A stretch of 64,000 bases of DNA from Saprospiraceae bacterium. GTDB taxonomy: Bacteria; Bacteroidota; Bacteroidia; Chitinophagales; Saprospiraceae. The stretch spans positions 16,993 through 80,992 of the forward strand of contig JARGNR010000004.1 of NCBI GenBank assembly GCA_029212405.1, in the 5' to 3' direction. Under the pieces are notes generated by a model that searched no databases, had not been told where the DNA came from, and was given only the letters and a program-made list of their open reading frames with translations. The position numbers and the translations under genes were made by a program. Positions 2,299 to 8,264 of this stretch are shown one piece after another (positions within the stretch are counted from its first letter, which is position 1; each line of letters begins with the position of its first letter).

Positions 2299-3336
2299 TT
2301 ATACTTTTTCATTGTAATCCGTGTTATCTCCATATTTTTTAGCAGCTTCAATCATTCTATATTTCATACGATTCCTCATTCGTTCAGGTTTCAACACTTC
2401 AATTTTTTCACCGAAACCAAGAATTAGTCGTTCAATTTCAAAATTATGATGCACATTTATTTGTATAATAATACTGTTGTCCTCAAATTTTTTGATCAAC
2501 TTTTGAGAGTGGTGAAATGGTTTAGTTAGTACGTATGGAGCATTTGATGGGTCAATCCAAAGGACAATTTCTAGAATTTGTTCGTCATTTAATACGGTTA
2601 CACCAAACGTGTTTTTATAGTAATCATCTGGGTTGAAGTTGTCTTTACTATATTCTTCTGACAAGGAATAGGAAATCTTCTGAATTCGATCTAAAGCAAA
2701 GTTCTGTATATTCTTTCTACCATTTACTTTACCAACAGCAAACCATCTGTTGTTGAATTCTTTCAAGATGTATGGAGTGAAATTGAATTCTGAAGGCCGA
2801 TCGGATTTGAAGGATTGATATTTAATTGAAAGGACTATTTTTTTCAGGATAGCTTGATAAATGACATCCAAATGTTCTAGCCCTTTTAATTCCTTATTGG
2901 TATCTAAATGAATAATTGAATCTTTGGAATTTTTTTCGCTGTAGACCTTATCTTCCAACTTTTGAAGGACTCCATTCAAATCCGAAAATAGGGAGAAATC
3001 TTTGAATTGTTTTAGCATTTCCACAGATTCCATGATGACTCCCATGTCTGTTTCAGTAATGGGAATGTTAGTAATAGAGTAATCTGCATCTTCGTAGGTA
3101 TAGTACTTTTTATCGTAGACTACAATAGGAGCATTATATCCTAGCTTATCGCTTCTCATTAATTGTAAGTCTAATTGGATGGTTCGTTTGCTTACATTTG
3201 TACTTTTACCTTCGTACTCATATAATGCATCGGAACATGCATCGATAAGAGAGTCCAATGTCCATTTTCGTTGACGATTTTGAAGACATTGATCAATTGT
3301 TCGATATCGAATAAGTGCATTTTTGTTGGTTGCCAT
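2299..3336 (-). CDS. WYL-domain helix-turn-helix transcriptional regulator
   Basis: N-terminal wHTH (IRYRTIDQCLQNRQRKWTLDSLIDACSDALYEYEG) and WYL-like core (LSIKYQSFKS...FTPYILKEFNNRWFAVGK); ATG at 3336 preferred over the ORF-track start. Confidence 0.8.
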   Translation of the reverse strand: MATNKNALIRYRTIDQCLQNRQRKWTLDSLIDACSDALYEYEGKSTNVSKRTIQLDLQLMRSDKLGYNAPIVVYDKKYYTYEDADYSITNIPITETDMGVIMESVEMLKQFKDFSLFSDLNGVLQKLEDKVYSEKNSKDSIIHLDTNKELKGLEHLDVIYQAILKKIVLSIKYQSFKSDRPSEFNFTPYILKEFNNRWFAVGKVNGRKNIQNFALDRIQKISYSLSEEYSKDNFNPDDYYKNTFGVTVLNDEQILEIVLWIDPSNAPYVLTKPFHHSQKLIKKFEDNSIIIQINVHHNFEIERLILGFGEKIEVLKPERMRNRMKYRMIEAAKKYGDNTDYNEKV

Positions 3337-3362
3337 AAGTATTTTATTTTGCACTTTAAATG

Positions 3363-4781
<1,419 letters not shown>

Positions 4782-4802
4782 ATTATAACTTTGCGTCAAC
4801 TT

Positions 4803-4910
4803 ATGAAAGTTACCAATATACATATGAGCGAACTGGGATTATTCCCGACGATAGATTTAAATCGAGAATACGATTTGAAAATGGATCGCTTATATCATCC
4901 TGTAGAGTAA
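4803..4910 (+). CDS. short ORF, 35 aa (MKVTNIHMSELGLFPTIDLNREYDLKMDRLYHPVE); candidate leader peptide downstream of rtcB
   Basis: ATG...TAA between rtcB stop and a terminator; 15/35 residues are D/E/H/L/P. Confidence 0.45.
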   Translation: MKVTNIHMSELGLFPTIDLNREYDLKMDRLYHPVE

Positions 4911-4942
4911 TATTTATTTGAAAATATACAATTCGAAAAAAG

Positions 4943-4973
4943 AGCGTCCAGATTAAATTTTGGGCGCTTTTTT
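4943..4973 (+). terminator. Rho-independent terminator after rtcB/short ORF 1
   Basis: AGCGTCCA...TGGGCGCT hairpin followed by TTTTTT. Confidence 0.75.
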
Positions 4974-5175
4974 AGTTTAGAAACAAATATAATTTAAAGA
5001 AAAACACAATTATTTTGAATAATTAGAAAGACATAAATATCGCACTTGAAAAGAATAACAATTGAGAGACAGACTGTTGTGAATTTTGACATATGCTGCT
5101 TAAGAGCGGCCATAAATACCAATGTCAATAAGCTACATAACTAATTGAAAATCAATTAATTAAATTATTTTTTCC

Positions 5176-5205
5176 TTGTGATTTTAAAAAATTTGTTTAC
5201 CTTTG
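5176..5205 (+). promoter_or_regulatory. Bacteroidota-type promoter (TTG 5176-5178, N19, TACCTTTG 5198-5205)
   Basis: Good consensus match upstream of short ORF 2. Confidence 0.65.
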
Positions 5206-5309
5206 CATTGTCAATTAATAAAAACAGAGAAAGACATATTAGTAAATAAAACCTGTTGCTTATTTAATTCACAATGAAAATCAATTAAAAAATATAAATA
5301 CCAGTTGTA

Positions 5310-5432
5310 ATGACATATTCAATTTCACATATCGAACTTTTATTAGACATCGAACCCCGTTTACCCGAACTGGATTGTGATCTGGAACATTTGGATGAGT
5401 ATTCATTACAAGAGATAGTAGATTGTATGTAA
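5310..5432 (+). CDS. short ORF, 40 aa (MTYSISHIELLLDIEPRLPELDCDLEHLDEYSLQEIVDCM); candidate leader peptide of a tRNA-array attenuator
   Basis: Promoter upstream, terminator downstream; 23/40 residues are Leu, Glu, Asp, Pro or His; no Lys/Asn/Gly/Ala/Phe. Confidence 0.6.
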   Translation: MTYSISHIELLLDIEPRLPELDCDLEHLDEYSLQEIVDCM

Positions 5433-5457: not shown

Positions 5458-5493
5458 AAAGCATCTCTTGATTCCAAAGAGGTGCTTTTTTTT
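5458..5493 (+). terminator. Terminator/attenuator between short ORF 2 and the tRNA array
   Basis: GCATCTCTT/AAGAGGTGC stem followed by TTTTTTTT; 5' arm complementary to CAAGAGAT at 5409-5416 inside short ORF 2. Confidence 0.8.
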
Positions 5494-5558
5494 GCTTTCA
5501 TTTTAAACATTCATTTAAAAGGATCATAATCCAAGGAGTATCAAATTGCTCCACATCC

Positions 5559-5631
5559 AGTATTGTAACTCAATGGCTAGAGTGCCCGACTGTCTCTCGG
5601 GGAGTTGCGGGTTCGAATCCCGTCAATACTG
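5559..5631 (+). tRNA. tRNA-Asp(GTC)-like, non-canonical (T37)
   Basis: Acceptor AGTATTG/CAATACT, D-arm ACTC/GAGT, anticodon arm CCCGA-CTGTCTC-TCGGG, T-arm with TTCGAAT; discriminator G. Confidence 0.75.
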
Positions 5632-5635
5632 CAAA

Positions 5636-5681
5636 GATTGAGAAAAATGCCTTGTTTTTTGCCAGCATTACTTTTTCAATC
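5636..5681 (+). other. Stem-loop in the spacer between tRNA-Asp and tRNA-Glu
   Basis: GATTGA..AAAAATGC pairs with GCATTac..TTTTTCAATC. Confidence 0.5.
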
Positions 5682-5685
5682 CTAC

Positions 5686-5757
5686 GCTCCGTTCGTATAA
5701 TGGTTAGTACACTTGGCTTTCTACCGAGTAATAAGGGTTCGATTCCCTTACGGAGTA
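5686..5757 (+). tRNA. tRNA-Glu(TTC)-like copy 1, T37
   Basis: Acceptor GCTCCGT/ACGGAGT, anticodon arm CTTGG-CTTTCTA-CCGAG, T-arm AAGGG-TTCGATT-CCCTT. Confidence 0.8.
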
Positions 5758-5770
5758 CAAAAATTTAAAT

Positions 5771-5842
5771 CTGAGAAGATAACGGTGGTTGTTTACTCGC
5801 TTTGGAAGCGAGAGGTCATAGGTTCAAATCCTATTTCTCAGA
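5771..5842 (+). tRNA. tRNA-Pro(TGG)-like, no T8/A14
   Basis: Acceptor CTGAGAA/TTCTCAG with C1-G72 and A73, anticodon arm CTCGC-TTTGGAA-GCGAG, T-arm ATAGG-TTCAAAT-CCTAT. Confidence 0.75.
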
Positions 5843-5847
5843 CTATT

Positions 5848-5919
5848 GCTCCGTTCGTATAATGGTTAGTATACTCGGCTTTCTACCGAGGGATGAGGGT
5901 TCGATTCCCTTACGGAGTA
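5848..5919 (+). tRNA. tRNA-Glu(TTC)-like copy 2, T37
   Basis: Near-identical to copy 1; anticodon arm CTCGG-CTTTCTA-CCGAG. Confidence 0.8.
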
Positions 5920-5925
5920 CAAAAT

Positions 5926-5999
5926 GCGGGGATGGCGGAAATGGCATACGCGTCCGATTTAGAATCGGGAATTTGAGGGTTCGACTCCCTCTCTCTGCA
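5926..5999 (+). tRNA. tRNA-Leu(TAG)-like with short (class I) variable loop
   Basis: Acceptor GCGGGGA/TCTCTGC, anticodon arm TCCGA-TTTAGAA-TCGGG, 5-nt variable region AATTT, T-arm GAGGG-TTCGACT-CCCTC. Confidence 0.75.
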
Positions 6000-6018
6000 C
6001 CTATCACGATAGATCTAG

Positions 6019-6092
6019 ATCCCACTAGCCCAATTGGCAGAGGCAAAGGATTTAAGCTCCTTACAGTCTGGGTTCGACTCCCAGGTGGGATA
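6019..6092 (+). tRNA. tRNA-Leu(TAA)-like with short (class I) variable loop
   Basis: Acceptor ATCCCAC/GTGGGAT, anticodon arm AAGGA-TTTAAGC-TCCTT, 5-nt variable region ACAGT, T-arm CTGGG-TTCGACT-CCCAG. Confidence 0.8.
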
Positions 6093-6108
6093 CAAGATTG
6101 TATCATAT

Positions 6109-6180
6109 GGTGTCTCTAGTTTAACTGGTAAAATACCTCAATGTGGATGAGGAGAACAGAGTTCGAGTCTCGGTGACACC
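6109..6180 (+). tRNA. tRNA-His(GTG)-like with defective T stem/acceptor mismatch
   Basis: GGTGTC/GACACC acceptor (including G-1), anticodon arm CCTCA-ATGTGGA-TGAGG, TTCGAGT loop; T-T mismatch and bulge in T stem. Confidence 0.7.
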
Positions 6181-6280
6181 CAAAATATTTGTAAAATAAC
6201 TCTGAGGATTTTCAGAGGTAGGTGAGAACGAGCAATTACTCACTGCCAATAAAGTGCGGAGATTTTCGTTATTAACTCGC

Positions 6281-7583: not shown

Positions 7584-8264
7584 TTACAATACTTTATTTT
7601 TTTTCAATAGTAGTCTTATACTTGCTAAATGAGAATAAAGGACAATAGGAACAATAACAGCAGGAAGCCAAACAAACGGAAAGTAGGTTACGCCGATATT
7701 AGGTTGATCGAATGCAAATTTCTGGATAGGGGTTTGAGCACATAATACTGCAATGATTAAAATGTTTATTAGCAAGCCCAAACAGAGGATATTCCAAATT
7801 AATAACCCTTTTCTTCCTATCCAATTTTTTACAAACACTGCATAATAAATAATAGGTGCAGAAAGTCCTGAAAGAACATCAAAGTTATATCCTTCGAAAG
7901 TCATTAAATCAGGAATATAACCCTCTACATACACATAGTACAATACGATTTCAACCGGGACTCTTATTGTATGAAGCAAGGTTAACCAGTTTAAATTTTG
8001 CTTGTCACTATATCTCTTACCCCTTTTGGTAAACAGGTGGAGGACAACGAATAGTATTCCTGGAAATAAGAGAAAAATAAATCTTGGTGGGTTAGTATTT
8101 AATACCCTATAAAACCCAAAGTACCCTAAGACACCCACAATACAAGTCCAAATGAGGATACCTGCGAGCGTATTTTTACTATTATAGGATTTATAAAAAA
8201 ACCATAAAGTGAGGATTGTTGTAAGAACAAAAAAAATCGTAAGTGGAATAGAAATTTCAGTCAT
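7584..8264 (-). CDS. integral membrane protein of unknown function
   Basis: Multiple hydrophobic segments. Confidence 0.55.
   Translation of the reverse strand: MTEISIPLTIFFVLTTILTLWFFYKSYNSKNTLAGILIWTCIVGVLGYFGFYRVLNTNPPRFIFLLFPGILFVVLHLFTKRGKRYSDKQNLNWLTLLHTIRVPVEIVLYYVYVEGYIPDLMTFEGYNFDVLSGLSAPIIYYAVFVKNWIGRKGLLIWNILCLGLLINILIIAVLCAQTPIQKFAFDQPNIGVTYFPFVWLPAVIVPIVLYSHLASIRLLLKKNKVL

Follow-up and report, generated by a model that had tools for sequence, protein, structure and literature searches.

Layout of the locus

The stretch of DNA analysed here (the window) comprises 64,000 nucleotides of a Saprospiraceae contig (JARGNR010000004.1, positions 16,993 to 80,992), and positions are counted from its first letter. 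Downstream of rtcB and its divergent WYL neighbor, two short open reading frames, each with a terminator, precede a tRNA array, and the following features were assigned.

2302-3336, minus strand: WYL-domain transcription regulator (Pfam WYL and WCX), divergent from rtcB
3363-3381, strand not applicable: palindrome TACGCAAAATAATTGCGTA, putative WYL operator, upstream of rtcB
3420-4781, plus strand: rtcB, RNA ligase (Pfam RtcB, E=3e-36); start codon uncertain, stop codon at 4779-4781
4786-4794, plus strand: putative promoter P_A, a Bacteroidota-type -7 box TAACTTTGC, directly 5′ of ORF1
4803-4910, plus strand: ORF1, putative leader peptide of family A, 35 aa, MKVTNIHMSELGLFPTIDLNREYDLKMDRLYHPVE, with 14 homologous leaders carrying His7; candidate sensor codons about 5-21, with His7, Glu10, Leu11, Leu13, Pro15, Asp18 and Leu19 among them
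4821-4831, plus strand: segment 1, CATATGAGCGA, ORF1 codons 7-10, pairing with 4886-4895
4882-4895, plus strand: segment 2, TGGATCGCTTATAT, with the antiterminator strand at 4882-4891 and the protector partner at 4886-4895
about 4939-4973, plus strand: terminator A, with 5′ arm GAGCGTCCA (segment 3, 4942-4950), 3′ arm TGGGCGC (segment 4) and a T run
5058-5135, plus strand: conserved structured element, found in all 14 tandem loci in the interval from terminator A to promoter B
5198-5206, plus strand: putative promoter P_B, TACCTTTGC, a TAnnTTTG-type box in the same place in aligned relatives
5310-5432, plus strand: ORF2, putative leader peptide of family B, MTYSISHIELLLDIEPRLPELDCDLEHLDEYSLQEIVDCM, rich in D/E/H/L/P, with a family permutation P=1.5e-4 for the isotype match in the codons upstream of the antiterminator
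5409-5416, plus strand: antiterminator strand of attenuator B, CAAGAGAT, with locus-matched 2:3 pairing in family B
5458-5496, plus strand: terminator B
5559-6181, plus strand: tRNA array Asp, Glu, Pro, Glu, Leu(UAG), Leu(UAA), His (ARAGORN and Rfam), divergent copies with an unusual nucleotide 37

An earlier sequence-only reading had described ORF1 by its coordinates, its content of D/E/H/L/P residues and a pairing of its last part with the terminator arm, and all three were reproduced. These residues make up 15 of the 34 after Met (binomial P=0.024, window alone), and the antiterminator strand TGGATCGCT(T)/TGGATCGCTT (4882-4891) forms a duplex of -12.1 kcal/mol with (G)AGCGTCCA (4942-4950) in which a single T is bulged (codon-shuffle P=0.28, window alone). 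The terminator A hairpin was calculated at -18.3 kcal/mol. Two features were added to that reading. A protector helix is formed by CATATGAGCGA (4821-4831) and TCGCTTATAT (4886-4895), and since the latter overlaps the antiterminator strand, the 1:2 and 2:3 helices are mutually exclusive. The promoter-like TAACTTTGC (4786-4794) lies immediately ahead of ORF1, whose start follows the TTTG of this box by 9 nt, a spacing at which the ORF1 transcript would begin at the start codon or very close to it, as a near-leaderless mRNA. By folding energies, full-length terminator A always outcompetes the antiterminator at equilibrium, as is usual for attenuators, and this equilibrium outcome is not proof of kinetic switching. 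In the window alone, pairing and composition were barely beyond chance and neither was compelling; therefore, rtcB relatives were gathered for comparison.

Tandem leaders and alternative helices in related loci

Relatives of the window rtcB (58-73% identity) were sampled from 60 related genomes and 80 loci of the GTDB collection, nearly all in or near Bacteroidota, and about 17 of the sampled loci had a tRNA array no more than 10 kb from rtcB, some of these arrays running off contig ends. Leaders were scanned for as short ORFs with a terminator within 75 nt downstream, and the first suitable ATG was taken as the start, which was set by judgement in L035, L040 (GTG) and L115. One order was obtained in 14 loci, the window included: leader A, a GCGTCC-type terminator, leader B (its start some 360-510 nt downstream of leader A), a second terminator, and tRNAs. 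Window ORF1 is leader A and window ORF2 is leader B. The GCGTCC-type hairpin with its T run follows leader A in all 14 loci. The attenuator reading of ORF1 and its tandem arrangement with ORF2, both proposed from the window, are thus supported by 14 homologous loci; lack of conservation or of a coding signature, named beforehand as evidence against the proposal, was looked for among the relatives and not found.

All 14 A leaders have CAT (His) as codon 7, as do 10 of the 14 B leaders at the same loci; as a purely amino-acid signal this is to be read with the dominance of CAT among His codons and with the position of the codon-7 bases inside helix 1:2. In 11 of the 14 loci, the start codon of leader A has the TTTG of a TAnnTTTG box, the usual Bacteroidota promoter element, 7-11 nt upstream of it, as compared with a base rate of 3.8% for any ATG (P=9e-14 if the loci were independent). 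The loci are related, and the P values given here are therefore optimistic. The pN/pS of ORF1 was about 0.5 in close relatives, with few changes, and is not used as main evidence.

For the pairing tests, partners were permuted among 12 loci using fixed windows (locus-matched test). In family A, the last part of the ORF paired with the terminator 5′ arm of its own locus (2:3, P=1e-4, 12 loci), and codons 4-11 paired with the last part of the ORF (1:2, P=5e-5, 12 loci). The family A controls were non-significant (upstream 45 nt with the arm, P=0.74; codons 12-19 with the last part, P=0.24; codons 4-11 with the upstream region, P=0.66). In family B, the antiterminator helix 2:3 was likewise locus-matched (P=5e-5), and the protector helix 1:2 was not detectable in the same test (P=0.72). 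At each of the 14 loci, the leader strand that pairs best with the terminator arm stops 13-33 nt short of where the stop codon ends, and leader and arm covary, with GCATCC/GGATGT in L119 and GCGTTC/GAACGC in L071. These tests support mutually exclusive 1:2 and 2:3 helices that would compete with the terminator, and the predicted helices of ORF1 have the four-segment layout of trp attenuation.

In flavobacteria (L099, L103, L104, L108, L113, L114, L115, and L119), the tandem pair stays with the tRNA array, either 1.3-9 kb away from rtcB or on the opposite side of that gene; only the window and a few relatives have it adjoining rtcB. The putative attenuator switch is a property of the tRNA operon, not of rtcB. 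Because of its own promoter-like box and the flavobacterial separation from rtcB, ORF1, with the tandem pair, is assigned from sequence as the first gate (attenuator A) of the tRNA operon. The particular role proposed earlier, gating transcription that enters the tRNA module from the rtcB promoter, is only partly supported.

A WYL gene lies next to rtcB in 13 of the 14 ORF1-type loci, and the palindrome TACGCAAnnnnnTTGCGTA (at most 2 mismatches) was found 55-434 nt upstream of rtcB in 14/14 A loci, as against 1 match in 250 kb of reversed control sequence. An operator-like palindrome also precedes leader A by 72 nt in L104 and L108.

The element between terminator A and promoter B consists of a hairpin ACAATTG-GAGACAGAC-ATTGT and a hairpin TCCG-n5-CGGA followed by CAGG..CTATTGCC; in the window (5058-5135), the hairpins ACAATTG-GAGACAGAC-TGTTGT and GCTGC..GCGGC were seen, and the element occupies the same place at 19215-19290 of L108 and 12937-13010 of L103. 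No Rfam family was found for the leaders or for this element. A 16-mer search with the element gave few true loci: the match in L126 was a chance match inside a coding gene, and two further matches belonged to the same contigs as L104 and L108. The intervening RNA is possibly a processive antitermination element.

A related element with a different first hairpin lies between tandem leaders before rtcB2(-prfH). Here, a leader of family D (about 20 aa) is followed by one of family C (about 28 aa, ELGS..LLRDF), each with a terminator and an antiterminator (L108 13908-14352, L119 13147-13597, L102 6495-6979, L106 3708-4365, and L111 12892-13347). The D/C tandem stands directly before rtcB2 in L108 and L119; the operon after it reads rtcB2 ... 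prfH in L108, with prfH further on, and begins with rtcB2 in L119. The D and C leaders follow the same antiterminator logic (Fisher 4e-13, the loci being related), and the 1:2 helix was not significant in these two families.

Leader composition and the tRNA array

The composition of leader B was compared with the isotypes of the downstream array in 13 leader-array pairs, and none of 20,000 re-pairings was as good. In ORF2, 23 of 39 residues are D/E/H/L/P, the isotypes of its array (P=3e-5). Among 11 A-B loci, the family B match was found in the part upstream of the antiterminator (P=1.5e-4; last 14 codons, P=0.28), and that of family A, weaker than that of B, in codons 5-21 (P=0.004; remaining codons, P=0.14). 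The match thus appears confined to codons that a ribosome would meet before the antiterminator strand. No isotype match was obtained in L113 (2/17).

The genome of the window contains a second array, for Phe, Leu, Cys, and Ser, partly tandem-duplicated (contig C73, locus L161 2783-3800), which was examined only after the hypothesis had been formed. Its own leader MKITHNIPSTSFSSFCSTIARAMG, which reads ..STSFSSFCS.., stands ahead of it; the leader ATG follows TTTG by 9 nt, and there are a terminator and an antiterminator of -16.4 kcal/mol. By its sequence, this leader-array pair is an independent case of the isotype match in the same genome. At 11872-12737 of L035, an array for Phe, Lys, Asn, Gly, Arg, Met, Arg, and Val has ahead of it a leader MRVRNMIRKNRKVVFITDYAKA and a terminator; this leader matches a different isotype set and lies beside an Asp/Pro/Glu/Gln/Leu leader.

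The array tRNAs of the window and of 16 related loci have a systematic change at nucleotide 37, a position that is a purine as a general rule. U37 was found in array tRNA-Asp (13/13) and tRNA-Glu (11/11), and A37 in array Pro(UGG) (12/12) and Leu(UAG) (12/12). Non-array copies from the same genome or other loci have A37 in Asp and G37 in Pro and Leu; the comparison for Glu rests on the purine-37 rule, the housekeeping tRNA-Glu of this genome not being among the retrieved copies. The array tRNAs are not plain duplicates, and the altered nucleotide 37 may make the replacements immune to a nuclease or independent of a tRNA modification.

Other unusual tRNA-like sequences were observed in the sampled loci. 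In L040, the gene directly 3′ of rtcB is tRNA-Thr-like and its anticodon arm is abnormal (about 8016-8095, minus strand), and three near-identical tRNA-like sequences with differing, partly odd anticodons are spaced about 150 nt apart on contig C108 of the window's own genome (locus L162, reverse strand, 3078-3451). RNAs resembling circularly permuted tRNAs, in which a T arm and 3′ acceptor come first, followed by the D arm and 5′ acceptor that match them, were seen in L113 (6130-6800), L119 (7751-8300), L035 (9790-10200), and L038 (3880-4100). They come after an operator-like palindrome (that of L038 was not found by the scan) and are followed by a slipin-like gene in L035, L038, and L119.

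Proposed mechanism, rival explanations and known systems

ORF1 is very probably the leader peptide of a trp-type ribosome-mediated transcription attenuator, the first of two before a spare-tRNA operon. This reading is supported by the ORF family and its conservation, the alternative helices, the isotype match, and the tandem order. RNA polymerase would start at P_A or arrive from rtcB. When no ribosome is loaded, segment 1 would pair with segment 2 and terminator A would form; it would form again when a ribosome completes the leader and, on reaching the stop codon, covers segment 2. When His, Glu, Leu, Pro or Asp tRNA is missing, for example after cutting by an anticodon nuclease, the ribosome would stall at about codons 5-21 and cover segment 1, leaving segment 2 free for the terminator 5′ arm, and transcription would continue. 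Read-through would reach the second attenuator (ORF2), which would check the same tRNAs, and then the array encoding their replacements. We infer in this scheme the translation of ORF1, the stalling, the read-through, tRNA loss or damage as the trigger, and the gating by terminator A of the array plus the intervening element. Another promoter-like box (P_B) follows terminator A, and this counts against the scheme.

That ORF1 is a chance ORF and 4939-4973 a plain rtcB terminator would agree with the near-chance pairing and composition in the window alone, and a terminator is expected 3′ of rtcB; this explanation is strongly disfavored and very unlikely, given His7 in 14/14 leaders, the fixed distance from start to promoter, the locus-matched 1:2 and 2:3 pairing, and the presence of the same leader-terminator unit kilobases away from rtcB in flavobacteria. 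Hardly more credible is a small functional protein whose own expression is regulated by the RNA elements: the pN/pS value in close relatives and an S.CDYR motif common to several flavobacteria point that way, but the peptides are barely alike across families outside His7, their composition follows the array, and the antiterminator lies within the ORF itself. It is rather improbable, if a more serious alternative, that attenuator A gates only the RNA element at 5058-5135 and does not control the tRNAs, the element itself regulating P_B locally or acting in trans. In favor of this, every aligned locus has the promoter-like P_B downstream of the element, and the same order recurs before rtcB2-prfH; on the other hand, a terminator was not noticed in the interval from the element to ORF2, and the isotypes matched by the A leaders are also those matched by the B leaders.

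The main rival concerns the trigger. The leaders might sense general translation stress, such as ribosome-targeting antibiotics or slow elongation, their composition reflecting the tRNAs that are most often limiting and not the address of an operon. A comparable tRNA operon of Anabaena is induced by chloramphenicol (PMC10272220), and His7 is constant with or without tRNA-His in the detected array; however, leader composition tracks the particular array both across loci and within one genome, and a general stress signal is a possible but doubtful trigger. An addressed tRNA-loss sensor has an even chance of being the correct description. In such a sensor, the leaders would spell the amino acids of their array, loss of those tRNAs would switch on exactly their replacements with altered nucleotide 37, the serial attenuators with a conserved RNA between them would act as a coincidence check, and rtcB2-prfH, a ribosome-rescue operon, would draw on the scheme as well.

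Ribosome-mediated attenuation has been described for biosynthesis and resistance genes. With trp/his attenuation, the arrangement proposed here shares the leader ORF, the exclusive 1:2, 2:3, and 3:4 helices, and the stall codons before segment 2, and every defining feature of that type that is testable on sequence was found (1:2 in family A, not in B). It differs in that tRNA genes and not biosynthesis would be controlled, in that a single leader combines several amino acids that match the downstream tRNAs, and in the two attenuators in series and the near-leaderless start. A T-box riboswitch was not matched in the window, where Rfam at the gathering threshold gave tRNAs only. No report was found of attenuation controlling tRNA genes with isotype-set-matched leaders, in a search outside of which most subscription literature lies.

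The individual parts have counterparts elsewhere. In the TrcR regulon of Anabaena, a 26-tRNA trn operon, rtcB and slipin are under a ribbon-helix-helix repressor; a spare tRNA array, rtcB and slipin are parts common to both systems, the Anabaena set being co-regulated and induced by translation stress (PMC10272220). In our sample, arrays accompany rtcB in many loci, and a slipin-like gene (by reading) was present in L035, L038, and L119 and not near the window rtcB. Whereas TrcR is the repressor in Anabaena, a WYL protein is the neighbor here, with no TrcR in that place, and no mention of a leader or of attenuation was found by term search in the Anabaena paper (PMC10272220). The RtcR/CARF rtcBA operon, in which a CARF-domain activator responds to damaged tRNAs, likewise places RtcB RNA repair under a damaged-tRNA signal (PMC7790460), whereas a WYL regulator, codon-reading attenuators, and tRNA genes are combined here. 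Identity with that operon was rejected, a WYL gene and no RtcR sigma-54 activator being found beside rtcB. A second rtcB with prfH, as in the RtcB2-PrfH operon (PMC9223846), occurs in some of these genomes, preceded here by tandem leaders and terminators, and no such regulation was found in that paper by term search. Phage tRNAs with anticodon-loop changes escape tRNA nucleases (PMC10264068); these too are spare tRNAs with altered anticodon loops, whereas the arrays here are chromosomal and bacterial, with a consistent change at nucleotide 37 and putative attenuator control.

The cell may thus sense a shortage of particular tRNAs and make replacements. If the proposed mechanism is true, it would be a bacterial closed loop, linked to RNA repair, in which the lost tRNAs are sensed and altered ones supplied in their place. 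The leaders would then be a readable list of the tRNAs that each lineage expects to lose, and through such lists the natural targets of tRNA-attacking toxins and defences of Bacteroidota would become directly testable.
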